DNA of 64,000 bases from Pedobacter frigoris (lineage in GTDB: Bacteria; Bacteroidota; Bacteroidia; Sphingobacteriales; Sphingobacteriaceae): the NCBI RefSeq assembly GCF_005116445.1, contig NZ_SWBQ01000002.1:372001-436000 (forward strand), written 5' to 3'. The notes under the pieces were generated by a model. That model had not been told where the DNA came from and did not search any database. It saw nothing but the letters and a program-made list of their open reading frames with translations. How positions within the stretch are numbered: position 1 is the stretch's first letter; each line of letters begins with the position of its first letter. The position numbers and the translations under genes are program-made. Below, one piece after another: positions 33,766-49,007 of this stretch.

Positions 33766-33959
33766 ACTTTAAAACAGTTATTCTCCTCAACTGCCCTACC
33801 CACCTTACCTATTAGGTATCCGAATATTCCCACTCCAATAATCCCTATAATTGCTCACGTATGCAGGCGCTTAAAAGCTTGTTGGCGGTTGATTTGTCAA
33901 AGGTTACAGTGATCTAAAAAGAAAATACACTCGTAAATGGTTGATCAAAATGAAAAACA

Positions 33960-33978
33960 CCCTTCCATTTTGAAAGAC
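33960..33978 (+). promoter_or_regulatory. Putative NtrC-type enhancer site 1 (upstream of the prohibitin-like gene)
   Basis: CCCTTCCATTTTGAAAGAC, imperfect inverted repeat, the weakest right arm of the four sites in this window. Centre 33969, 95 bases before the -24 GG at 34064. It lies far from any gene end, so it is not a terminator; this argues that the family of sites is regulatory. Confidence 0.7.
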
Positions 33979-34062
33979 TTACCTCAGCAAGCCTTTTTGC
34001 CTAAAAAATAAAAAAAGTCATTTGTGTTACTCCGACAGTCTTTTATCAGTTTAGCGAACATC

Positions 34063-34077
34063 AGGCACCTGCTTTGC
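34063..34077 (+). promoter_or_regulatory. Sigma-54-like promoter of the prohibitin-like gene
   Basis: AGGCAC-CTGCT-TTGC: GG and GC dinucleotides separated by exactly ten bases, as in sigma-54 -24/-12 promoters (consensus TGGCAC-N5-TTGC). Start expected near 34088; ATG at 34109. Confidence 0.72.
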
Positions 34078-34108
34078 CGCCTTGTTTGTCTAACTAAAAA
34101 AGGAAAGT

Positions 34109-35011
34109 ATGTTTCTCATTATCTTAGGCCCGCTTATTGCCATAATAAGCTTTTTTATTGCAAGGGGCGACAGTCCTTTAACCAGGTACAGTGGCATGAT
34201 CCGTGTAGCTGGTATTGTTGTGGCCCTCCTGGGTGCCGCGCTCTCCATGTTTAAAGTCATTGACGCCAGTCAGGTCGGCGTGAAGACACTTTATGGTAAA
34301 GTAGATGACGATGTCTTGTACAGCGGACTGAATGTGGTGAACCCACTGGTAGAAGTTACTACATTTGATGTTAAGACCCAGAACTACACCATGTCGGCGG
34401 TGCACGACGAAGGCAATAAGTCGGGTGATGACGCGATCCGGATCCTTACTTCTGACGGACTGGAAGTAACGATTGATCTTTCGGTCTTGTTCAGTGTCAC
34501 GCCCAAAGATGCACCCAGGATCTTAAAAGAAATTGGTGACGACTACCTGGACAAGATTGTCCGGCCCATTGCGCGCACAGCAATCCGTGACAATGCCGTT
34601 TCTTATGAAGCTGTTGCGTTGTATTCCATAAAAAGGCAGGAATTTCAAAACAAAATATTCGCTGCCATCGACCAGAGTTTCGCTAAAAGGGGGCTAAAAC
34701 TCGAGCAGCTGCTGGTTAGAAATGTCACGCTTCCCGAATCCGTCCGCAAGGCCATCGAATCCAAGATCAATGCGGAACAAGACGCACAGAAAATGCAGTT
34801 TGTCCTGCAAAAAGAAAAGCAGTTGGCCGAACGTAAGCGGATAGAAGCCCAGGGTATAGCCGATTATCAGCGCATCCTTTCGACAGGGCTCACTGATAAG
34901 CAATTGCAATATGAGTCAATACTTGCTCAAAAAGACATTGCGCTATCTCCAAATACCAAGATCATCTTAATGGGGAATGGAAAAAATCCTATAATTCTAG
35001 GCGGAAACTGA
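34109..35011 (+). CDS. Prohibitin-like SPFH/band 7 membrane protein
   Basis: Inner-membrane scaffold of 300 residues. Two hydrophobic N-terminal segments (about 1-18 and 30-50, FLIILGPLIAIISFFIA and MIRVAGIVVALLGAALSMF) precede the SPFH domain (about 52-215, DASQVGVKTLYGKVDDDVLYSG, PTARTAIRD-like block RPIARTAIRDNAVSYEA). A coiled helix follows (about 222-262, SKINAEQDAQKMQFVLQKEK). Prohibitin homologues form ring-like microdomains that regulate membrane proteases or bilayer order. The gene stands alone, and its promoter region carries a sigma-54-like element and an upstream inverted repeat shared with the kdp cluster, so it probably belongs to the same stress regulon. Confidence 0.9.
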   Translation: MFLIILGPLIAIISFFIARGDSPLTRYSGMIRVAGIVVALLGAALSMFKVIDASQVGVKTLYGKVDDDVLYSGLNVVNPLVEVTTFDVKTQNYTMSAVHDEGNKSGDDAIRILTSDGLEVTIDLSVLFSVTPKDAPRILKEIGDDYLDKIVRPIARTAIRDNAVSYEAVALYSIKRQEFQNKIFAAIDQSFAKRGLKLEQLLVRNVTLPESVRKAIESKINAEQDAQKMQFVLQKEKQLAERKRIEAQGIADYQRILSTGLTDKQLQYESILAQKDIALSPNTKIILMGNGKNPIILGGN

Positions 35012-35595: not shown

Positions 35596-37350
35596 CTATT
35601 CTGCTATTGGTAATAAAAAGCAAAACCTGCTTCCTTCACCAATTTCGCTCTCTACCCAGATCTTCCCGCCCTCTGCTTCAATAAAATCTTTTGAAATCGC
35701 CAGTCCCAGCCCCGATCCGGACTTATTATTGCCATCAGTTGGCACCTGGAAATAGCGGTCGAACAACCGCTTCTGGTATTGTTCATCAATCCCTTTGCCA
35801 AAATCCCTGACAGAAAATTCTATATTTCCTCCCTTTTGTATGATCTGGATAACTACTTTGGATTTCTGGGAACTGTACCGCATGGCATTGGACAGGAAAT
35901 TGACCAGTACCCAGGCCGTTTTCTCGGTATCTACATTTACCTTTGGCAGGTCATTTCTTGAAATCAGCTCCAGTTCTATAGTTTTCTGTTCTGCCTGGAA
36001 CCTGACCGCGTCCATCGCATAAATGGCAATCTTACGCGGATCGGACTTCACGAAATTCAGTTGCAGGTTGCCGGTTTCTACCTGTGACAGATCCAGCAGC
36101 TCACTTGTAATCTTCAGCAAACGGCCGCAATCCTCCTTGATGTGCTGGATCAGTTCTTTCTGTTCTTTATTCATACCGCCTACACGCTCATCATCCAGTA
36201 GCTTTAGACTCATTTTTATAGAGGAGATCGGGGTTTTGAGTTCATGTGATACGGTAGCTATAAAATTGGTTTTGGCCTCATCCAGTTCTTTATATTCGGT
36301 TACGTTTTTAAGAATGTAGACTTCACCTGCTGTTCTTCTCGACTCTTTGATCACATTGTCATGCTGGTCCTCAAAAACAGGTACCAGGATCTCCCGTCGC
36401 TCCAGCTTAAAGTAAGATTCCTTACCATCTGCATAGATCTTCATCGGTTTGGTATTACCTCCTGACTGCATCAGGGTATTGAGCAGGTCATTTTTTTTCA
36501 TGAGTTCCAGCGCATCTGACCCAATTACCTCTTTCTCGTTCAGATTCAGAAGCTGCCCGGCTACCTGATTCAAAAACAGCACCTCATTTTTCTCGTTCAG
36601 ACCAATGATCGCATCCTGCATCTGTCCGATAATGGCCTCTATCCTCATCTTTTCAGACTGCAATTTGGCCAGGTTACTGTTCTCCCATTTATTGAGCTGG
36701 GCGGTCATGGCATTGAATTCTTCTGCCAGTTCAGAGAACTCGTCATTGCCCTTAAATTCCAGGCGCTGTTTGTAGTTTTTCCTGCTGATGGCTTTGATGG
36801 CTTCAGAGAACTCTCTCAAGGGATTGGCTACAAAACCCGGGAAGTTCACACTAAAAGAGAACAGGACGATGAAGCACAGCGACGCGGCAAACATCAGGTA
36901 AGTAGCTGCTTTCTCTACGCTTGCCTGGGCAGCATCATTTTTCCTCACTATAGCCTGCATGTTGACTTCATCAATGACCCGGAGCTGCAGGTGCATTTTA
37001 CGGACTGCCGCCCGCTGGGCTTCCTGGCCTACGCCCGGCAGTGTCAATTCTCCAAAGGCTTTGGCAAATGCAGCAACAGCCTTGGCTTCCCCCTTCTCCG
37101 TGATGTTTTTTTGTTCGAGCTGCAGCTGGGCGGCTAATTTATCTTTAACAATCGGGACAAGCGGCAGTTCATTGTCATCCAGTATCGTCCGCATTTCCCG
37201 GGCATATTTCAGACTTTCATAGTTGTCCTTCAGAATAACCTTAGAGCTGATGGAGATCTTATTCATGTAATACAGGGATATGCCCCCGAAGAAGATGACT
37301 ACCACGAATAAGAATCCGAATCCGAGGCGAAGTTTTGTTTTTATCTTCAT
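35596..37350 (-). CDS. Membrane HAMP-PAS histidine kinase of the kdp cluster
   Basis: Sensor kinase of 584 residues: membrane segment 1 (about 8-28, [20 protein letters not shown]), a short helical periplasmic domain, segment 2 (about 148-168, [20 protein letters not shown]), HAMP (about 170-225), PAS (about 240-345, [20 protein letters not shown]), HisKA with His369 ([16 protein letters not shown]), HATPase with [27 protein letters not shown] and [12 protein letters not shown]. It replaces the kinase half missing from the neighbouring KdpD, with a 20-base gap. The partner is probably the NtrC-type regulator at 45207-46550, as no KdpE is present. Confidence 0.9.
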
Positions 37351-37370: not shown

Positions 37371-38501
37371 TCAGGAAAGAATCACAAGGTCGGTTTCCGT
37401 TTCAGCTATGTTTTTTAAAAGTTTGTTAAAGATAGCGGTTCGCATGATCACCTGGAACAGATTCAAATGTGGCTTACCGATACAAATCGTCGTAATTTCT
37501 TTTTCAGCCGCAATCCTGGTTATCGTCTCTGTCACATCTTCACTTTTTACTTTAAGTACTTCCGCACCAAGTTCGGTTGCAAGTTTAAAGTTATTGATCA
37601 GGTGCCGCTGCAGATCCAGCTTGATCCGGTCTCCTCCCTCATGGCTGCGCTGCACATACAGCACGATCCAGGGGGACCGATAATAAGAGGCCAGTCTTGC
37701 TGTTTTACGAATGATGATCTTTGCTGTTTCATGATTGGTGGAAATGCAGGCCAGGAATTTTTCAGGACGAAGCTTGATCTGTTTGGGGACTTCCACATTG
37801 ATCTTTCTTTCCAGGTGATGCGCCACTTCCTTCAATGCCAATTCCCTCAATTGCAATATCCTTTCCGGCTGGAAAAAATTATCCAGTGCACGCTTGATCT
37901 TGGTCTGGTCATAAATCTTTCCCGCCCTCAACCTGTCGATCAGCTCATCGGCAGTTAAATCGATATTGACAATCTCGTCGGCTGTTTCCAGAATCTTGTC
38001 TGGTATCCTTTCAGTAATCGGAATACCGGTAATGGTCTCGATCTCCTGATTCATGCTTTCCAGGTGCTGGATATTCACAGCCGAGATCACACTGATTCCA
38101 GCATCAAGAATATCTGCAACATCCTGCCATCGTTTTCCGTTTTTACTGCCTTCCACGTTGGTATGGGCCAGTTCATCAACAATCACCACCTCCGGGTGTT
38201 TATTGATGACCGCCTGAACATCCATTTCTTCCAGTTCTTTTCCTTTGTAAAACAGCTGCCGCCTGGGAATCAATGGAATACCGTCCAGAAGCGCATGTGT
38301 TTCTGCCCGGTTATGGGTTTCTATATAGCCGATCTGTATGTCGATGCCATTTTTCAAGAGTGCATGGGCTTCCTGCAGCATGCGGTAGGTCTTGCCTACA
38401 CCTGCGCTCATGCCGATATACACCTTAAATTTTCCACGTCTGGATTTTTTGACTAGGTCAAGAAATTTTCTTACAGATCCTGCTTTATCTTCTTCTTCCA
38501 T
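37371..38501 (-). CDS. kdpD: KdpD-like sensor without kinase half
   Basis: Only the N-terminal cytoplasmic part of KdpD is encoded: KdpD domain with Walker A (GMSAGVGKTYRMLQEA, about 29-45), the conserved VIVDELAHTNVEGSKNGKRW and DILDAGISVISAVNIQHLES, then a USP-like domain (about 248-375, FLACISTNHETAKIIIRKTA). The frame ends at 376 residues after VILS, exactly where E. coli KdpD continues into four membrane helices and the kinase. This could be a soluble module sensing K+ or ionic strength and acting on the separate kinase just downstream. This split form is recurrent in Bacteroidota, as far as I know. Confidence 0.9.
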   Translation of the reverse strand: MEEEDKAGSVRKFLDLVKKSRRGKFKVYIGMSAGVGKTYRMLQEAHALLKNGIDIQIGYIETHNRAETHALLDGIPLIPRRQLFYKGKELEEMDVQAVINKHPEVVIVDELAHTNVEGSKNGKRWQDVADILDAGISVISAVNIQHLESMNQEIETITGIPITERIPDKILETADEIVNIDLTADELIDRLRAGKIYDQTKIKRALDNFFQPERILQLRELALKEVAHHLERKINVEVPKQIKLRPEKFLACISTNHETAKIIIRKTARLASYYRSPWIVLYVQRSHEGGDRIKLDLQRHLINNFKLATELGAEVLKVKSEDVTETITRIAAEKEITTICIGKPHLNLFQVIMRTAIFNKLLKNIAETETDLVILS

Positions 38502-39957: not shown

Positions 39958-40524
39958 TCATTGCTTCAATGCGTCCAGTGCAAGGTTCAGCTTCAAGACG
40001 TTCACTGAGGTCGGGCCAAACATACCTAGCAAAGGTCCCTGTGTATTTTTAACCACCAGCTCTGCTACCGTTCTTTCATCTAACTGACGCACAGCTGCAA
40101 TTCTTTTAATCTGGATAATGGCACCTTGCTCAGAAATATTAGGATCTAACCCGCTACCTGAAGCAGTAACCATATCTGCCGGGATATCTGCTTTTTTAAT
40201 GGTCTGATTGTATTTTAGTAAGGTGTCGATCCTATCAGATACCTGTTGCAGGTAATCAGGATTAGACGGGCCTTTATTTGAACCCCCAGATCCTGCCGCA
40301 TTGTAACCTACAGCAGATGGCCTGCCCCAGAAATATTCCGGTTTGGTAAAGGACTGACCAAGCAGGGCATAACCCACTACTTTTCCGTTTTTGGTGAGCT
40401 TTTCACCACCACCCTTGCCTTTAGAAAACCCTCCGGCAAAAGCAACAACAAGCGGATAGACAACGCAGAGCAGTACCATTAAAACTGCAGTTAGGCGTAT
40501 AGATTGTAAGATGTACTTTTTCAT
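39958..40524 (-). CDS. kdpC: K+-transporting ATPase subunit C
   Basis: Single-pass subunit of the KdpFABC pump, thought to help high-affinity K+ binding. The 188 residues begin MKKYILQSIRLTAVLMVL with one membrane helix, then RPSAVGYNAAGSGGSNKGPS and DMVTASGSGLDPNISEQGAI, the conserved KdpC signature, ending FGPTSVNVLKLNLALDALKQ. A longer frame starts at 40554 but would overlap kdpB; ATG 40524 follows kdpB by 22 bases. Confidence 0.95.
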   Translation of the reverse strand: MKKYILQSIRLTAVLMVLLCVVYPLVVAFAGGFSKGKGGGEKLTKNGKVVGYALLGQSFTKPEYFWGRPSAVGYNAAGSGGSNKGPSNPDYLQQVSDRIDTLLKYNQTIKKADIPADMVTASGSGLDPNISEQGAIIQIKRIAAVRQLDERTVAELVVKNTQGPLLGMFGPTSVNVLKLNLALDALKQ

Positions 40525-40546: not shown

Positions 40547-42577
40547 TTATACAAATAAGCCTACCAGTAAATCGATGAGTTTGATCCCAATGAAAGGTGC
40601 AATTACACCGCCCACACCGTAGATTAAAAGATTCCTGCGGAGCAATGCGCTGGCACCGATTGGTTTGTATTCCACACCTTTTAAAGCCAGTGGGATCAGG
40701 ATCGGGATGATGATCGCATTGAAGATCACAGCCGAGAGAATGGCGCTTTCAGGGCTATGTAATCCCATGATGTTCAGGCTTTGTAATGCCGGAATCGATG
40801 CGATGAACAAAGCCGGCACGATAGCAAAATATTTAGCCACATCATTGGCAATCGAGAAGGTGGTCAGCGTACCCCTGGTGATCAAAAGCTGCTTACCGAT
40901 CTCAACAATCTCGATCAATTTGGTCGGATCGTTATCCAGATCCACCATATTTCCAGCTTCTTTGGCTGCCTGTGTACCGCTGTTCATGGCTACACCCACG
41001 TCTGCCTGGGCAAGAGCCGGAGCATCGTTGGTACCGTCACCCATCATGGCAACCAGTTTGCCCAATGCCTGTTCTTCTTTGATATAGTTCATTTTATCCT
41101 CTGGCTTGGCCTCGGCAATAAAATCATCAACACCAGCCTTTTCAGCAATGAATTTTGCAGTTAATGGGTTATCACCGGTTACCATCACGGTTTTCACACC
41201 CATTTTTCTAAGACGCTCAAAACGTTCGCTGATACCGGGTTTAATGATGTCCTGCAATTCAATCACACCCATTGTTTTTTCATTGACCGCAACCACAAGT
41301 GGTGTCCCTCCATTGCTGGAGATTTTCTTAACCTGATCTTCCGTCTCCACAGGAAATGGATTTCCAGCCATCAATACCATATTGCGGATCGAGTCAAATG
41401 CACCTTTACGGGTTCTTTTGCCATCTGCGGTATCCAGACCACTTGAACGTGTTTCTGCTGTAAATTTGATAAACGTAGATCCTGCCGGTGCTGAGGTAAC
41501 TTTAAAGTCCTGCGCGGTGGCCAGTTCGAGAATAGATTTTCCTTCCGGGGTTTCATCAGCAAGTGAGCTCATCACGCAGGCTTCGATAAAGGCTTTCATT
41601 TCAATTCCAGGGGCAGGATAGAAACTGGTAGCCTTACGGTTACCGATGGTGATCGTGCCCGTTTTATCCAAAAGCAGCACATCGATATCACCCGCTGTTT
41701 CAACCGCTTTACCCGATTTGGTAATGACATTAGCCCTTAACGCCCTGTCCATACCCGCGATACCGATCGCAGATAACAAGCCTCCTATAGTAGTTGGAAT
41801 CAAACATACAAACAGTGAAATCAGCGCAGCAATCGTGATTGGGGTATTTGCATAATCAGCAAATGGTTTTAATGTCACGCACACAATGATAAACACCAGC
41901 GTAAAACTGGCCAACAGGATCGTCAATGCAATCTCATTAGGTGTTTTCTGACGGGATGCCCCCTCAACTAAAGCAATCATTTTATCCAGGAAACTTTCAC
42001 CAGGCTGGGTGTTTACCTGCACTTTGATCTGATCTGAGAGCACTTTGGTGCCACCGGTCACAGATGATTTATCACCTCCTGACTCACGGATCACTGGAGC
42101 TGATTCGCCTGTGATGGCAGATTCATCAATGGTTGCGATGCCTTCAATGATCTCTCCGTCTGTTGGGATGGTATCACCGGCTTCGCAGATAAATACATCA
42201 CCTTTTTTAAGTAACGAAGAAGAACGGATTTCAGTTTTTCCATTAGCCAAAACTACCTTGGCCGGTGTTTCCTCTCTTGTTTTTCTTAAGGAATCCGCTT
42301 GTGCTTTCCCTCTTGCTTCGGCAATCGCCTCCGCGAAATTAGCAAACAATACAGTCAGCAAAAGGATGAGGAAAATAATAAAATTGTATGCAGGAGAGCC
42401 CTGTCCGGTATTACTCATAGAGTACACCGTTACATAAGCCATAATCAGGGTTCCGATCTCTACGGTAAACATGACCGGGTTTTTGATCATCACCCTTGGA
42501 TCAAGCTTGATGAAGGACTGTTTCAGTGCGGTTTGCACCAAAGCAGGTTCAAATAATTTATTTGATGAGGTTTTCAT
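40547..42577 (-). CDS. kdpB: K+-transporting P-type ATPase subunit B
   Basis: Catalytic P-type ATPase subunit of the high-affinity K+ pump, 676 residues. Phosphorylation motif [15 protein letters not shown] loop ([16 protein letters not shown]), ATP-binding KGAFDSI region, and hinge [20 protein letters not shown]. The membrane helices and the C-terminal pair of segments are complete. It is 11 bases after kdpA. Confidence 0.97.
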
Positions 42578-42588
42578 AATCTCGTAAT

Positions 42589-44307
42589 CTATTTAAGCAT
42601 GGTAAAGTATTCTGCCAGCGGACCCAAAGCCAGGGCAGGGAAATAAGAAAGTGCATTCAGTACGACGATCACTGCAAAGGTCATCAGTGCGAAAGTCATG
42701 GTATCTGTTTTGAGCGTTCCTGCAGATTCAGGAATGTATTTTTTAGATCCTAGCAAGCCTGCTATAGCAACAGGGCCGATAATCGGCAGGAAGCGCCCAA
42801 GTAGTAAAACAAAACCTGTAGCCACATTCCAGAATACGTTGTTGTCTCCCAGACCTTCAAAACCTGATCCATTGTTCGCATTGGATGAAGTCATCTCATA
42901 AAGCATCTCTGAAAAACCATGGAAGCCTGGGTTATTTAACCAATTCTTTGGCTGTACTGCCCATGCAGCCTCACCATGCGTAGTAAATACATAGCCCGCA
43001 ATAGCTGTTCCGGCTAAGATCAGGAATGGGCTTAAAAGCGTGATCAGGGCAGCGATCTTCACCTCACGTGCCTCAACTTTATGACCCAGAAACTCCGGCG
43101 TTCTTCCCACCATCAGTCCGGATATAAATACCGCTATGATCAGGTAAATGAAATAGTTCAGTACTCCGACACCACAACCTCCGTAAAACGAGTTGATCAT
43201 CATGCCCAGCAGCTGCCATAAGCCTGTGAGCGGCATGGTACTATCGTGCATACTGTTTACCGAACCTGTCGAAATGATAGTCGTAACTGTGCTCCAGTAA
43301 GCGGATATGGCAGGGCCAAAACGCACTTCCTTACCTTCCATAGCACCTGTAGTTTGTGAGACACCCATTTTTGCAATTGCGGGGTTTCCTCCAAGTTCGG
43401 AACTAACAGTCGGAATCAGCAGCAGCAGCATACCAATGGTCATGACACCAAAAATTACCCAGGCCAGTTTCCTGCGTCTGATGAAAATACCAAATGCAAT
43501 GACCATGGCAATAGGAATAATTACCTGCGCAACAAGCTCAATGGTATTGGTTAGGTAGTTCGGATTTTCCAGCGGGTGCGAAGAGTTCACTCCAAACCAG
43601 CCTCCGCCATTTGTACCTAAGTGTTTGATGGCAATAAAACCGGCTGCAGGACCTCTGGATACATTCACCGTATCGCCCTGAACAGATATAAATTGATCTT
43701 TACCTTCATAACTGCTCGGCGTACCATTAAAAGCAAGAATGATTGCCATAACCAATGATAAAGGAAGCAGCAGACGGGTGATAGATTTTACGAAAAATTC
43801 CCAGAAGTTGCCCAGTTTAACACTGGTCTTGTCCCGGAATGCTTTAAAGAAGACCACAGCAGCGGCAATTCCTGTAGCTGCACTTACAAATTGCAGGAAC
43901 ATCAACACAAAATGCTGCGTGAGATAAGTCACACCAGATTCTCCTGAGTAATGTTGCAGGTTGCAGTTCACTACGAAACTAATAATGGTGTTAAAGGAAA
44001 GATCTGGTGTCATGCCCGGGTTGCCGTCGGGATTTAGCGGCAATTTATCCTGGTACATCAGCACAAAAAAGCCATAAACTAACCAGACCAGATTGATGGT
44101 GAGCAGTGCTTTCAGGTGCTGCTTCCAGTTCATCTCTTCTTTAGAGTTAATGCCCGAGAGTTTGTAGATCCCGGATTCAATAGGTTTTAAAAAGTCTGTC
44201 CAGACTTTTTCTCCGGCAAATACCTTGGCCAGGTACTTGCCCAGGGGAATAGCGATCACCAGCGTGAGTCCGTAAGTGGCTATGATTCCAAGTAATTCAG
44301 TATTCAT
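42589..44307 (-). CDS. kdpA: K+-transporting ATPase subunit A
   Basis: Channel-like K+-selective subunit of KdpFABC, 572 residues and ten or more membrane segments, with selectivity-filter-like loops such as [30 protein letters not shown] and [14 protein letters not shown]-terminal [20 protein letters not shown] is family-typical. It begins ten bases after the kdpF-like gene. Confidence 0.97.
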
Positions 44308-44317
44308 GAGTGTTTAA

Positions 44318-44395
44318 TTAAAATTTTTCGGGTTTGATCAGCACGTAGATCATGTAAATGAAGACGGCGATGGCGATAACAAATAATGCAGTCAT
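44318..44395 (-). CDS. kdpF: KdpF-like small subunit (25 residues)
   Basis: MTALFVIAIAVFIYMIYVLI followed by KPEKF: one hydrophobic helix with the short basic C-terminal end typical of KdpF (in which a KPE-like motif is often seen). It lies ten bases before kdpA, and the position agrees with the kdpFABC order. KdpF stabilises the complex in other bacteria. Confidence 0.82.
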   Translation of the reverse strand: MTALFVIAIAVFIYMIYVLIKPEKF

Positions 44396-44400
44396 AATTT

Positions 44401-44484
44401 TTAGATTTTTTCGAACCAGTCAATGGATTTGTAACACACCCAGCTTAAGGTCAGCAGGGCCAGAAATAGTAGGATTGTTAACAT
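44401..44484 (-). CDS. Second very small membrane protein, first gene of the kdp operon (27 residues)
   Basis: MLTILLFLALLTLSWVCYKS followed by IDWFEKI. One hydrophobic helix plus a short charged tail, stop codon five bases before the kdpF-like ATG. It is the first reading frame after the sigma-54-like promoter. The packing and the membrane character argue for a real gene, but I cannot name it from memory; it may be a Kdp accessory peptide. Confidence 0.68.
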   Translation of the reverse strand: MLTILLFLALLTLSWVCYKSIDWFEKI

Positions 44485-44510: not shown

Positions 44511-44526
44511 GCCAATCGGAATGCCA
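44511..44526 (-). promoter_or_regulatory. Sigma-54-like promoter of the kdp operon
   Basis: Minus strand TGGCAT-TCCGA-TTGGC: -24 GG, ten bases, then GG where GC is usual. The predicted start (about 44500) is 16 bases before the first ATG at 44484. Confidence 0.65.
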
Positions 44527-44604: not shown

Positions 44605-44637
44605 ATAAATACCCTTCCATTTTGGAAGGGTATTTAT
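44605..44637 (-). promoter_or_regulatory. Putative NtrC-type enhancer site 2 (kdp operon), perfect palindrome
   Basis: CCCTTCCATTTTGGAAGGG (44612-44630), flanked by ATAAATA and TATTTAT, giving 15-bp arms around three bases. Centre 44621 is 96 bases upstream of the -24 GG at 44525. It is also 41 bases after the lone lid-domain gene, so it may act as a terminator too, but no T tract follows. Confidence 0.7.
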
Positions 44638-44670: not shown

Positions 44671-45036
44671 TTAGGCTGCATTTTCCACTTCCATCCGGTC
44701 TGCTCTGACCACAAACCTCGAAAATATCTGCTTTTTTATAGTTTTCAAGATCTCTTGCCGGCAATAGCCGTGGTATCTTACCTCGACACTGAACCTGCAA
44801 CACTCAGCGCAGCATTCCTGATCTAAATCCACACTGATGACGGTCATTTTTACCAGTTCATGCTGGTTGCCGGCAGCTGGAAATACAAAGTCAGAAAACC
44901 ATAAAATATCTTTTAAGGCCGTGCATATAGCCCTGGTGCCCTCGTCATTCTGGACAAGGCTATAACGGCGGTAAGCGGTGCAGTCCAGAGTCATCACTTG
45001 CTGCTGGTCTGCGGAGGGTATCATTTCATTATTCAT
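44671..45036 (-). CDS. Stand-alone M20 peptidase dimerisation (lid) domain protein
   Basis: A 121-residue protein which, read against the neighbouring M20 hydrolase, aligns only with its dimerisation domain: LWFSDFVFP versus HWFSSYAFP, VKMTV in both, FSVEVRY versus FTVDIRF, and EILKTIKKQIF versus DILNTIKNHTF. All catalytic and metal ligands are missing, as is the lid His of the hydrolase. It contains a CCAECC cluster. No signal peptide. Having its own sigma-54-like promoter and enhancer, it is a separate unit between the kdp operon and the hydrolase operon. I infer a partner or regulator of the M20 enzyme through heterodimers; an isolated domain relic is the alternative, but the promoter argues against decay. 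Confidence 0.75.
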   Translation of the reverse strand: MNNEMIPSADQQQVMTLDCTAYRRYSLVQNDEGTRAICTALKDILWFSDFVFPAAGNQHELVKMTVISVDLDQECCAECCRFSVEVRYHGYCRQEILKTIKKQIFSRFVVRADRMEVENAA

Positions 45037-45062: not shown

Positions 45063-45078
45063 TCCAAAGGGAATGCCA
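45063..45078 (-). promoter_or_regulatory. Sigma-54-like promoter of the lone lid-domain gene
   Basis: Minus strand TGGCAT-TCCCT-TTGGAA, -24 GG then ten bases then GG. Start expected near 45052, ATG at 45036. Confidence 0.62.
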
Positions 45079-45163
45079 TGAGCTACCGGCAAGGAGAAAA
45101 ATGGGGTCTATTGATCTAAGAAATAAAAAAAATATTTTTTCAGATTTTCAGGGAATAAAAAAA

Positions 45164-45182
45164 CCCTTCTCTTATGGAAGGG
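45164..45182 (-). promoter_or_regulatory. Putative NtrC-type enhancer site 3 and probable terminator of the activator operon
   Basis: CCCTTCTCTTATGGAAGGG on the plus strand; centre 45173 is 96 bases upstream of the -24 GG at 45077. It is also flanked by A6 and T6, so it can end the activator transcript, whose stop codon is at 45207. One sequence may do both. Confidence 0.68.
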
Positions 45183-45206
45183 TTTTTTCGGAATGAGTAA
45201 GCGTCA

Positions 45207-46550
45207 TCAGGTGTCAATTTTATATTCATCGATCTTACGATACAATGTAGTCAGTCCAATACCGAGCAGTCTTGAAGTTTCCGTTTTATTACCCCTCGTG
45301 TATTTCAGCACCTTAACGATATGCTGCTTTTCCATGTCCTGCATGTTCAGCGGATCAGTACCCCTGGTTTGGGTATGAAATTCAAATGGCAGCAAGTTTG
45401 GACCAATGACGTCGCCTTCAGCCAGGATCACAACCCGTTCCATCACGTTTTTGAGCTCACGGATATTTCCTTTCCAGCTATGACTGGTCAATAGTTTTGA
45501 AAACTCCTTATCTATGGTAAATTCCGGTCTGTTCACTTTAGCTGTAAATTCAGCCAGGTAATGCATAGCAATCGGCAGGATATCATCTTTGCGGTGAGAA
45601 AGCGGGGGCAGTTCAATAGAGAAAATAGAAAGCCGGTAAAAAAGATCCAGCCGAAAATTACCGGCTTCTGCTTCGGTCTTCAGGTCACGGTTAGTAGCGG
45701 CAATGATCCTTACATTGACCTGGCTGGTCTGGGTGTCTCCGACCTTGATATAAGTCTGGTTTTCCAACACTCGGAGGAGTTTGGCCTGCAGATCCAGATT
45801 CATTTCTCCGATCTCGTCCAGGAATATCGTCCCCTCATTGGCCTCTTCGAGCAGACCCTTTTTATCCTTTACTGCCCCCGTAAAAGCCCCTTCCTTATAT
45901 CCAAACAGCTCGCTTTCCAGTAGCGCAGGGTTAAAGCCACTGCAATTGACCGCTACAAAAGGCTTTAGCTTTCTCTGGCTTTCGTAGTGGATAGCCTGGG
46001 CGAATACCTCCTTACCTGTCCCTGTTTCCCCAAGTAGCAAAACGGTCGTTGTTGTTCCGGCAACCTTCTGGGCTAGAGCTACTGCTTCTTTGATGGCTTT
46101 GGACTTACCTAAAATAGAATCAAAATTGTATTTCCTGGTGATCTTATTTTCCAATTCGTAAATACGTGCATTCAGTTTGGCTTTATTCATAGCCTTATAA
46201 ACCAGCGGGATAATCTTGTCGTTGTCATCTCCCTTGGTAATATAATCAAAGGCCCCATTGCGCATGGCCATTACCCCATCGGATATGGTTCCAAAAGCGG
46301 TCAGGTTGATCACTTCAGCACCGGGCCTGATCTTTTTAATTTCTTTGACCAGCTCAACCCCGTTATAATCCGGTAGTTTCACATCACTGATCACTACCAG
46401 GATATCTTCAGCCTTTAAGATCTTAATGCCTTCCTTACCTGTATAAGCCTGAAAAACCTTAAAACCCTCCAGCTCGATGATCCGGGCGAGCAGGCTGCAT
46501 ATTTTCTTTTCATCATCAATGATCAGAACAGTGTCTTGCATAACGGGCAT
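45207..46550 (-). CDS. NtrC-family sigma-54-dependent response regulator
   Basis: Activator of RNA polymerase with sigma-54. The 447 residues comprise a receiver (about 5-118, phosphoacceptor Asp56 in [10 protein letters not shown], acidic pair IDDE), an AAA+ domain with Walker [11 protein letters not shown], the sigma-54-contacting loop GAFTGA ([15 protein letters not shown]), Walker [10 protein letters not shown], and a C-terminal Fis-type helix-turn-helix ([20 protein letters not shown]). The frame runs upstream to 46604, inside the M20 gene, but ATG 46550 follows the M20 stop by one base. No other such regulator is in the window, and four putative target sites surround it. It ends an operon with the GNAT and M20 genes, so it would control its own expression. 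Confidence 0.95.
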
Positions 46551-46551
46551 T

Positions 46552-47664
46552 TTATTGGTATTGTGATTCATAAATTTGCAGGTCCAGTGTAGGATTGTTT
46601 GCAAGATACGGAAATATAGAATTCAGCAGATCGATATAAATGGTAATGCCGTCACTGATCTCGGTCAGGTGAATGTATTCATCAGCAGTATGGGAGCGCA
46701 CTGAATCACCCGGGCCCATTTTTACCGAAGGTATATCTAACCAACCCTGGTCTGAACTGGTAGGCGACATGTAAGTCTTTCTGCCAATGGCCAAACCGGC
46801 CTTTACAATAGGGTGCATAATGTCAATTGAAGAAGGAGTCAATACATTCGGACGCAAAGTGGTATCGCAGAAAGTATGGTTTTTAATGGTATTGAGGATA
46901 TCTTTCGAGGTATAGCTGTGATCAAACCTGATGTCAACGGTAAAGCTGCATTCCCCGGGTATAATGTTGTGCTGTAACCCCGCATTGATCTGGGTAACGG
47001 TCATTTTCACCGGATCAGGAAGATCGGCCTCTATCGGGAAAGCATAACTTGAAAACCAATGGATATCCCTGATTGCTTTATAGATCGCGTTATCCCCTTC
47101 TTCTCTTGCCGCATGACCGGATCGGCCGGTCGATACACAATCCAGAACCATAGATCCTTTTTCTGCTATCGCCATCTGCATACCTGTAGGTTCCCCAACT
47201 ATTGCAAAAGTGAGTGGCATCAGATCATCTAAAATGCATTTGATGCCTTTCTGTCCGGAGTTCTCTTCTTCGGCTGTCGCAGCAAGGCAAAGGTTAAAAG
47301 GAAGGTCAGCTCTTTCATAAAAATAGAGGAAGGCAGAAATGAGTGAGACTAGCGGGCCTCCGGCATCATTGCTGCCCAGACCATAAAGCTTACCGTCTCT
47401 GATGACCGGTGTAAAGGGATCGTTCGTATATTGAGAATTTGGTTTTACTGTATCCAGATGTGAATTGAGCAGGATAACGGGTTTCGATAGATCGAAATAT
47501 TTATTATAGCACCATAAGTTGTTGAATTTGCGTATAGTAGTTACACCGCGTTCATTTAAAAAGGTTTCGACATGATCAGCAGCGAAGCTTTCTTCTCTGC
47601 TAAAAGATGGGGTTTTGATTAACTTTTCAAGCAGGGCTACAGCCTGTTCATATAATTTTTTCAT
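46552..47664 (-). CDS. M20-family metallohydrolase (ArgE/DapE-like deacylase)
   Basis: Zinc hydrolase of 370 residues that probably removes an acyl group from an N-acylated amino acid or polyamine. Metal-site blocks: ILLNSHLDTVKPN (His, Asp), YGLGSNDAGGPLVS (bridging Asp), ATAEEENSGQKG (catalytic Glu) and VGEPTGMQMAIAEKGS (Glu), with the late His in VKMGPGDSVRSHTADEYI. The dimerisation domain (about 172-275) is closely similar to the free-standing protein at 44671. The frame begins at 47670 with TTG, but ATG 47664 is better. The ArgA-like gene lies 17 bases upstream and the NtrC-type activator one base downstream. Substrate could be N-acetylornithine, N-succinylornithine or another N-acyl compound. 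Confidence 0.88.
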   Translation of the reverse strand: MKKLYEQAVALLEKLIKTPSFSREESFAADHVETFLNERGVTTIRKFNNLWCYNKYFDLSKPVILLNSHLDTVKPNSQYTNDPFTPVIRDGKLYGLGSNDAGGPLVSLISAFLYFYERADLPFNLCLAATAEEENSGQKGIKCILDDLMPLTFAIVGEPTGMQMAIAEKGSMVLDCVSTGRSGHAAREEGDNAIYKAIRDIHWFSSYAFPIEADLPDPVKMTVTQINAGLQHNIIPGECSFTVDIRFDHSYTSKDILNTIKNHTFCDTTLRPNVLTPSSIDIMHPIVKAGLAIGRKTYMSPTSSDQGWLDIPSVKMGPGDSVRSHTADEYIHLTEISDGITIYIDLLNSIFPYLANNPTLDLQIYESQYQ

Positions 47665-47681: not shown

Positions 47682-48296
47682 TTAATGATTGATAACGGCA
47701 TCATGCACATATCTTTGAGACAGGTTCTGTCCGGGCAAGATACTGTGGGTTGCTGAGACCAACGGATCAAAAAGCATGGCGGTACACAGACAGTTGCATT
47801 TATTTTTGCGTTCCAGAATGTCATAGTTGGGGCAGCTTTTACAGCCCTCCCAAAACTGTTCGTCGTGGGTAATCTCGGAAAAGGCAACCGGCTGAAAGCC
47901 CAGTTGGGAATTCATTTTCATAACTGCTGTTCCTGATGTAATGCTGAAGACCTTGGCCGAAGGGTACATCCTGCGGGAAATTTTGAAGATTCTATCCTTG
48001 ATAGATTTGGCCACACCGGAATGCCTGTATTCAGGGGCAACAATCAGGCCTGAATTGGAAACGAATTTTCCTTGCTCCCAGGCTTCAAAGTAAGAAAAAC
48101 CCACCCATTTCCCATTGCTGGTTAATGCAATGACGGCCTTTCCATCCCGCATTTTTTGAGCAACAGATTCAGGTGTCCGTTTGGCAATGCCAGTTCCTCT
48201 TGCAATGGCCGAGGCCTCTGTTTCCCTGATGATTTTACCAGCGTATCTGATATCATTTATGGTAGCAATACGCACAAATATCATTTGATTGTTCAT
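47682..48296 (-). CDS. GNAT N-acetyltransferase of the ArgA-like Bacteroidota type
   Basis: Acetyl- or succinyl-CoA-dependent N-acyltransferase of 204 residues. Motifs include EASAIARGTGIAKRTPESVA, GLIVAPEYRHSGVAKSIKDR (the R/Q-x-x-G-x-G/A CoA loop) and a Cys cluster near the C-terminus, GCKSCPNYDILERKNKCNCL ending TAMLFDP. I recall this pattern from GNAT proteins in Bacteroidota arginine operons that may make N-acetyl- or N-succinylglutamate. Here it is coupled with an M20 deacylase and an NtrC regulator rather than arginine genes, so it is a paralogue. The four or five Cys may bind a metal. It is first in its operon and preceded by a sigma-54-like promoter. Confidence 0.83.
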   Translation of the reverse strand: MNNQMIFVRIATINDIRYAGKIIRETEASAIARGTGIAKRTPESVAQKMRDGKAVIALTSNGKWVGFSYFEAWEQGKFVSNSGLIVAPEYRHSGVAKSIKDRIFKISRRMYPSAKVFSITSGTAVMKMNSQLGFQPVAFSEITHDEQFWEGCKSCPNYDILERKNKCNCLCTAMLFDPLVSATHSILPGQNLSQRYVHDAVINH

Positions 48297-48323: not shown

Positions 48324-48339
48324 TCCAAATGCAGTGCCT
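48324..48339 (-). promoter_or_regulatory. Sigma-54-like promoter of the GNAT/M20/activator operon
   Basis: Minus strand AGGCAC-TGCAT-TTGGAA, same spacing as the other sites. Predicted start about 48312, ATG 48296. Confidence 0.65.
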
Positions 48340-48423
48340 CTTTTATCCTAGGAATAAAAAACACGCTTCAATGCTCAAAAAACGCACAATAATTATTTAG
48401 AAGAGAAAAATGATAAAACAATG

Positions 48424-48442
48424 CCCTTTCAAAATGGCAGGG
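48424..48442 (-). promoter_or_regulatory. Putative NtrC-type enhancer site 4 (GNAT/M20/activator operon)
   Basis: Minus strand CCCTGCCATTTTGAAAGGG. Centre 48433 is 95 bases upstream of the -24 GG at 48338. It is not near any gene end. Confidence 0.7.
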
Positions 48443-49007
48443 TTATTTTCGTTTCGAGTGAATTCACCTAATGTTAACAAAGCCTATGAGCCTGGAACGA
48501 ATTGAATAAATCTTGCTTTAAAATGGCAACGACATATGAACCATTACACGGTTTCCTGCATAAGCCCTGCCTCCCTATTAATTATCTATTCGGGTATTGT
48601 AATCTCGCTAAGCAATTCTCTTTACCATGTCACCGATCACTTCAATCTACTTTTAAGTATATTTTTTCCTTCTGAATAAGTTCATGCTGCAACCGTTAGG
48701 TTTCATTTAGCTTCTCAACAAACGCCCGCAAAAAAGGCTAAGGAGATGAACAAAAGTGCATGTTTCTATATCTTTCATCCTGGAGAGGATAAATTCCAGC
48801 TACTCTTTAACCTCAAAGGCGCGGAAATTATGAGATATAACTGCACAAAAAAACTCCCGGTGAATGCCGGGAGTTTTTTTTATTGGTACCTGACAATTAA
48901 ATTCCTGCTTTCGGATTTTGAATACCGGAGAAAATTCACGGAACTCATAAGTCATTTAAATTGGTAAAATTTATTTAATGAACCTTTTTATTTTGAAAAA
49001 AGAAATA
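48443..49007. other. Gene-free stretch between the activator operon and carbonic anhydrase
   Basis: Nothing coding is supported. A weak reading frame from ATG 48746 with an AGGAG directly against it runs through the terminator at 48847-48880 and is not counted. The left end holds the enhancer and promoter listed above. Confidence 0.55.
48847..48880. terminator. Terminator of the SulP/carbonic anhydrase operon
   Basis: AAAACTCCCGG with CCGGGAGTTTT arms and a six-base loop between A and T tracts, active in both directions. On the minus strand it ends the carbonic anhydrase transcript, 128 bases after its stop codon. Confidence 0.85.

Follow-up and report, generated by a model that had tools for sequence, protein, structure and literature searches.

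The stretch of DNA analysed here, 64,000 nucleotides from the soil bacterium Pedobacter frigoris (referred to below as the window), contains a gene for an M20 hydrolase and, close to it, a short open reading frame (ORF), whose product was taken in an earlier note for a free-standing dimerisation (lid) domain of this enzyme family. This arrangement raises the question of whether such a solitary lid is the product of a real gene, from what it arose, and with which protein it may pair.

The lid gene and its neighbourhood

The ORF (45036-44671, minus strand) is a real gene, which encodes, from an ATG start, a 121-aa homologue of the M20 lid, as confirmed by homology, predicted fold and coding score. 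In agreement with the earlier note, the protein aligns (BLASTP) with the lid of the neighbouring M20 hydrolase (37 of 102 positions identical, 36%, over residues 172-273 of the latter; E 3e-19), and it consists of the lid region only, the M20 catalytic domain with its metal ligands being absent. Used as query against its own genome, the lid sequence returned, besides itself, two M20 proteins, namely this neighbour (E 9.8e-15) and an ArgE-like one (E 2.9e-11). Sequence homology to the M20 dimerisation domain (PF07687) is thus evident, but the Pfam profile itself misses the window lid, which matched no Pfam family up to E 10 and had no match in NCBIfam; a profile of the lid family found the M20 enzyme 3CT9 with an E-value of 3e-21. 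The coding score of the gene (0.078) is lower than that of any of the 15 whole genes nearby with which it was compared (0.118-0.278). It is within the range of 43 right-frame chunks of 121 codons taken from these neighbours (minimum 0.051) and exceeds the scores of the 86 wrong-frame chunks, the highest of which is -0.144.

The structural model of the lid (pLDDT 76.7) has the predicted beta-alpha-beta-beta-alpha-beta fold of M20 lids, which is what the earlier note had anticipated. With this model, the only one used in the PDB structure search, the best Foldseek match was 3CT9 of Bacteroides thetaiotaomicron (E 1.6e-7), and all four matches at E <= 0.001 were M20-type enzymes. In the VIA comparison 3CT9 (Z 11.3, rmsd 4.7, 117 residues aligned) was tied with 2rb7 (Z 11.5). 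The lid has clear homology, a conserved first helix and, according to the model, the fold in common with the dimerisation domain of ArgE/DapE and 3CT9, from which it differs in not being inserted in a catalytic domain.

Read along the minus strand, the genes are arranged in the order GNAT, M20, NtrC-type response regulator (RR), lid, kdp genes, porin, KdpD-like non-kinase sensor and histidine kinase. The GNAT acetyltransferase (47682-48296), whose orthologue is fused to a lid in ten relatives, is followed by a kdp-linked, ArgE-like M20 deacetylase (46552-47664), in which the metal-site residues are conserved and the lid residues H184, R187 and N233 are present, and by the sigma54 RR (45207-46544). 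On the other side of the lid gene, a 27-aa hydrophobic ORF MLTILLFLALLTLSWVCYKSIDWFEKI (44401-44484, minus strand), the first after the kdp sigma54-like box, precedes a KdpF-like ORF (44318-44395, recognised by inspection) and the genes for KdpA (42589-44307), KdpB (40547-42577) and KdpC (39958-40524). Of KdpABC only KdpA was searched against Pfam, which supports its assignment; KdpB and KdpC, as well as the porin and the histidine kinase, were assigned by inspection. The sensor (37371-38501) matches the NCBIfam model KdpD_non_kinase with 341.9 bits, below the cut-off of 550, and the histidine kinase is encoded separately (35596-37350). The regulator linked to kdp is a sigma54 activator and not of the KdpE type, and the KdpD-like sensor is not the kinase. 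Two other genomes with a free lid, G090 (locus L067) and G018 (L069), carry a second RR copy elsewhere, about 75% identical to the RR of the window.

Distribution, constraint and altered residues of the lid family

When a profile built from eight lids was used to search 145 Pedobacter genomes, 13 lid proteins were found, in 13 of the genomes, with E-values of 9.6e-48 or better for the lids and 2.7e-40 or weaker for full M20s. Ten of these lids extend a GNAT acetyltransferase at its C-terminus, the fusion gene being the one immediately before that of the RR, and the other three (those of the window, G018 and G090) are free and encoded immediately after the RR. The earlier note had suggested looking for the lone lid beside M20 genes in other Bacteroidota. 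The lid proved to be kept within Pedobacter, but no match was found outside this genus, either in 399 genomes of the family, representing 25 genera (E <= 1e-30), or in 300 genomes of the order, representing 17 genera (E <= 1e-40); these thresholds are strict, so that weaker lids in other genera would be missed. The distribution within Pedobacter is patchy: G035, G070 and G085, three genomes in which the GNAT or the RR ranks among those closest to its window counterpart, are devoid of a lid. A search of named genomes yielded 14 loci, at least nine of them with lids (seven fused, two free); one of these nine, L128 of P. panaciterrae O48, comes in addition to the 13 lids above.

The lid family is under purifying selection, with an overall dN/dS of 0.06-0.29 (Nei-Gojobori), which, together with its presence in 13 genomes, removes the doubt about conservation raised in the earlier note. 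By the same method, nine pairs of fused lids gave ratios of 0.06-0.16 (e.g. dN 0.052 and dS 0.847 for G002/G116; 0.253 and 1.931 for G079/G112), and the free pair G018/G090 gave 0.29 (0.347/1.198). In eight fused pairs a ratio was obtained for the GNAT half as well as for the lid, and in these pairs constraint is stronger on the GNAT half. For the window lid dS is saturated in pairwise comparison. This lid has the longest branch among the 13, it keeps 17 of the 22 positions invariant in the other 12 lids (p 0.0017) and loses five, and when neutral substitution was simulated to its divergence, 6.6% of the sequences were without a stop. For these reasons, purifying selection on the window copy itself is supported to a moderate degree. 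The view that this is a working gene thus holds as regards its open, coding-like frame and the constraint on its family, and in part as regards the constraint on the copy itself.

The residues of the 13 lids were compared with those of 40 M20s from the fetched loci, a set which includes one fragment of the frameshifted M20 of G100 and excludes ArgE (a separate set of 40 full-length M20s, used in the table of control regions and residues, is without the G100 fragment and with ArgE). The position of His184 of the window M20 is occupied by His in all 40 M20s and by Leu in all 13 lids, and Arg187, likewise invariant in the M20s, is present in none of the lids. Moreover, the Tyr of the first helix of the M20s is replaced by Cys in 13/13 lids, an Asp found in 37 of the 40 M20s is replaced by Thr in 13/13, and the Pro of the HNIIP loop (40/40 M20s) is lost from every lid. 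At the position of Asn233 (40/40 M20s), an aligned Asn is found in 7 of the 13 lids. The core of the lid and its first helix (D-I-x-W-F, F-P) are retained in 12 or 13 of the 13.

His184 of the window M20 aligns with His194 of DapE of H. influenzae, which is described as being contributed to the active site by the opposite chain (PMC10815964). It has also been reported that replacement of the equivalent His in Acy1 (His206Ala) leaves the enzyme nearly inactive, and that DapE without its dimerisation (lid) domain is inactive, which indicates that the lid is needed for activity (PMC4012986). With Leu in place of the donated His, the detached lid keeps its scaffold but would be unable to supply the catalytic contact; the protein is therefore best explained, as far as its residues indicate, as a detached, catalytically dead M20 lid. 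The truncated DapE described in the latter source separates the same two domains as are separated here; however, it was engineered and represents the catalytic domain alone, whereas in Pedobacter it is the lid alone which has been kept.

Lid-only ORFs were also found between GNAT and RR in G014 (L041, 7420-7881) and G029 (L043, 7405-7902). They were excluded from both the 13 lids and the 40 M20s, and they form long branches outside the 13-lid group; the ORF of G014 retains the His. They may represent separate reductions of an M20 to its lid.

Control regions and origin of the free lid

The earlier note had credited the gene with its own promoter and enhancer, and candidates for both are indeed recognisable. 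A sigma54-like box, TGGCATTCCCTTTGG (45063-45078, minus strand), has its -24 element at -42, and a palindrome which is a candidate enhancer (45163-45183, three mismatches to the pattern) lies at -146 from the lid start; the palindrome is followed by a T run on the minus strand and may therefore also end the RR transcript. The GNAT-M20-RR cluster is preceded by a similar box (48324-48339, minus strand, one mismatch, -24 element at -43) and an enhancer-like palindrome (48423-48443, minus strand), and the same is true of the kdp operon (box at 44511-44526, minus strand, with the -24 element at -42 by coordinates; palindrome at 44611-44631). The kdp upstream region has another TGGCAT, at -57, which was the one picked by the automatic scan. 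All three palindromes begin 146 bases before the first ATG of the lid gene, the GNAT gene and the first kdp ORF, respectively, the lid copy being the weaker one. A search of the complete genome (4.69 Mb) for the palindrome CCCTNCCATTTTGNNAGGG gave only two sites with at most one mismatch, one upstream of kdp and one upstream of GNAT. In the relatives, a palindrome is found at -145 to -148 in all ten fusion genes (one to four mismatches) and at -147 from the G090 lid; the exception is the G018 lid, with a palindrome at -249 (four mismatches) and none at -146.

Taken by itself, the sigma54-like pattern is no commoner in the window than chance would give (35 matches versus 43 expected), so that the case rests on the fixed position and the enhancer-like palindrome. 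Since a palindrome and a sigma54-like box at fixed spacing are common to the lid, GNAT and kdp, we read the lid gene, the GNAT-M20-RR cluster and kdp as one putative regulon of the adjacent sigma54 RR. From the linkage to kdp, we infer that the lid would be under potassium control.

Elsewhere in the window (33959-34111), a palindrome with two mismatches and a GGCAC-N5-TTGC-like box are located about 149 and 46 bases, respectively, before an ORF at 34109 (SPFH/band-7-like by inspection), which is a possible fourth member of the putative regulon.

In the phylogenetic tree the 13 lids are joined by a branch with support 92/84. Inside this group the tree leaves the relations between the window lid, the pair of G018 and G090 and the two groups of fused lids unresolved, and it is therefore silent on whether the free lids arose from the fused ones. 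More informative are the first six codons of the window lid (MNNEMI; 45019-45036, minus strand), an apparent vestige of the GNAT start (MNNQMI): these 18 nucleotides are identical to those of GNAT at 16 positions and to those of the kdp leader ORF at 7. Over -60 to +18 the lid/GNAT alignment was better than all 1000 shuffles, whereas that of lid/kdp was not (84/1000). For the region upstream of the ATG the corresponding shuffle values were 15/1000 (lid/GNAT), 3/1000 (GNAT/kdp) and 183/1000 (lid/kdp). The upstream likeness of lid and GNAT is weak, and kdp too has its palindrome at -146, so that it is mainly the first codons which speak for descent from GNAT. The 5' end of the G090 lid resembles both the window GNAT and the fusion gene of G081 (0/1000 shuffles each), and that of the G018 lid gives a mixed picture (2/1000 versus the G081 fusion gene, 683/1000 versus the window GNAT).

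Because the window lid begins with the first codons of GNAT, its probable ancestor is a GNAT-lid gene from which the GNAT part was lost, and the simplest history would lead from GNAT and M20 to GNAT-lid and then to the free lid. Comparative anatomy suggests that an ancestral Pedobacter GNAT gene and the M20 gene following it would have given rise to the GNAT-lid fusion, with loss of the M20 catalytic segments. A few lineages, including that of the window, would subsequently have lost the GNAT part, leaving the lid behind the GNAT start codon and control region; the first codons, and not the tree, support this step. The RR, M20 and lid genes swap places among species, the order being GNAT-lid, RR, M20, kdp in G002 and GNAT, M20, RR, lid, kdp in the window.

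A simple tandem copy of the lid of the neighbouring M20 was also considered and is not favoured. The residues found only in lids (Leu for His, Thr for Asp, Cys for Tyr) are common to the GNAT-fused lids, with which the window lid also groups (92/84), and its first codons are GNAT-like. The lid is thus real, and its origin is more unusual, and its partner less certain, than the earlier note proposed. Neither the replacement of the donated His nor the connection with GNAT nor the putative common regulon figured in that note.

Partners and possible function

The gene most constantly associated with the lid is that of the RR, which in every one of the 13 lid genomes lies next to the gene for the lid or for GNAT-lid. 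A kdp-type GNAT is present in 12 of them (it is missing in G018); in ten it is the fusion protein itself, and a separate kdp-type GNAT occurs in two of the three free-lid genomes. A hand count among the matches listed gave a kdp-type M20 in 7 of the 13 lid genomes versus 58 of the 132 other Pedobacter genomes. Among these matches it is missing in G079, G087, G012, G110, G121 and G112, each of which has two matches at E <= 1e-15, namely the lid and one other. The second match is an ArgE-range M20 in G079, G087 and G012; in G110, G121 and G112 it is weaker than about 1.6e-24 and below the matches listed, in which the kdp-type M20s are at 5.6e-28 or better, except for the broken copy of G100. Pairing with the adjacent hydrolase is therefore neither obligatory for the lid nor the conserved theme of its family. 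The proposal of the earlier note that this hydrolase is the natural partner is weakened by its absence from six genomes, by the fusion of the lid to GNAT in ten and by the GNAT-like first codons. A heterodimer of the lid with M20 or with ArgE is nevertheless possible.

The explanation to which we incline, with less than even confidence, is that the dead lid pairs with an M20-type deacetylase (M20 or ArgE) and damps deacetylation when the kdp regulon fires. The shared sites suggest that the adjacent sigma54 RR would switch on the lid together with kdpFABC, which encodes the emergency potassium pump of the cell, and with GNAT-M20-RR. The lid would then pair, lid to lid, with the neighbouring M20 or, where this is missing, with ArgE; with Leu in place of the donated His, the active site of the partner would not be completed, and deacetylation would be damped while GNAT acetylates. 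In the fusion species, the lid would tether GNAT to the deacetylase. Our best guess can be put as pairing of the lid with a deacetylase (or with GNAT), so that acetylation wins. Against this explanation stands the lack of a lid in G035, G070 and G085, despite their most similar GNAT or RR. Furthermore, ArgE must be invoked for the six genomes without a kdp-type M20, which in lid genomes is hardly commoner than in the rest of the genus.

Alternatively, the lid might be a regulatory or oligomerisation domain of GNAT, acting in cis in the fusions and in trans in the window, the M20 now being irrelevant. The fusion of 10 of the 13 lids to GNAT, the higher number of lid genomes with a kdp-type GNAT (12, versus seven with M20), the GNAT-like first codons of the free lid of the window and the stronger constraint on the GNAT halves in eight pairs are consistent with such a role. 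However, G018 has a lid and no kdp-type GNAT, and in one locus set we counted 24 loci with an unfused GNAT versus five with a fused one, which indicates that the kdp-type GNAT mostly manages without a fused lid. The AlphaFold model of GNAT-lid (pLDDT 54.9, pTM 0.48) is of too poor quality to show an interface. We regard this explanation as possible, and hold it slightly more tentatively than damping of a deacetylase.

It is unlikely that the window lid is left over from a former GNAT-lid gene and has no present function. Its branch, the longest of the 13, the loss of 5 of 22 otherwise invariant positions, a coding score below those of all 15 neighbouring genes, the lack of a lid in several of the closest relatives and the broken GNAT and M20 of G100 (L142) would all fit decay; on the other hand, the frame is open and coding-like in composition, 17 of the 22 positions are kept (p 0.0017), the control region is recognisable and the lids of the relatives are under purifying selection. 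Still less probable, in our opinion, is that the lid is a sensor of a small molecule or protein, which feeds the sigma54 RR and the kinase beside it. The RR adjoins the lid even where GNAT or M20 is missing, and the lid carries the regulon's own type of control region, as such a sensor might, but GNAT and RR can also adjoin without a lid (e.g. in L054), and the lid may therefore merely have inherited its place.

If the preferred explanation, damping of an M20-type deacetylase, is extended to a class of dead-lid regulators, in which a dimerisation domain was captured by the opposing enzyme, freed and stripped of its His, and poisons or retunes deacetylase dimers under potassium starvation, the proposal becomes somewhat less probable. 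Should it be true, such a regulator would stop an acetylation/deacetylation pair from cycling futilely. Dominant-negative dimer partners such as Id proteins take up a dimer interface and do not provide the residue needed for function; the likeness of the lid's proposed action to theirs is an analogy of mechanism only and implies no relation.

No description of a free-standing M20 lid was found in the open-licence PMC literature searched. The Pedobacter lids appear to be a natural case of a dimerisation domain which leaves its enzyme, rides on the opposing enzyme and also stands alone; in all the detached forms the catalytic residue that acts in trans has been replaced. Poisoning of M20 dimers by the lid, if it occurs, would mean that the enzyme family to which the antibiotic target DapE belongs has a natural inhibitor that is itself a protein, and would link the acetylation of amino acids with potassium starvation in Bacteroidota.

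Two minor observations concern the GNAT and M20 genes themselves. In G100 (L142, 5310-6985) both are broken into several frames, as a result of either decay or an assembly error. In the P. frigoris genome, the GNAT and M20 of the window have paralogues on contig C15, about 7 kb apart, the GNAT being 55% identical and the M20 ArgE-like, which we take to be an arginine pair.
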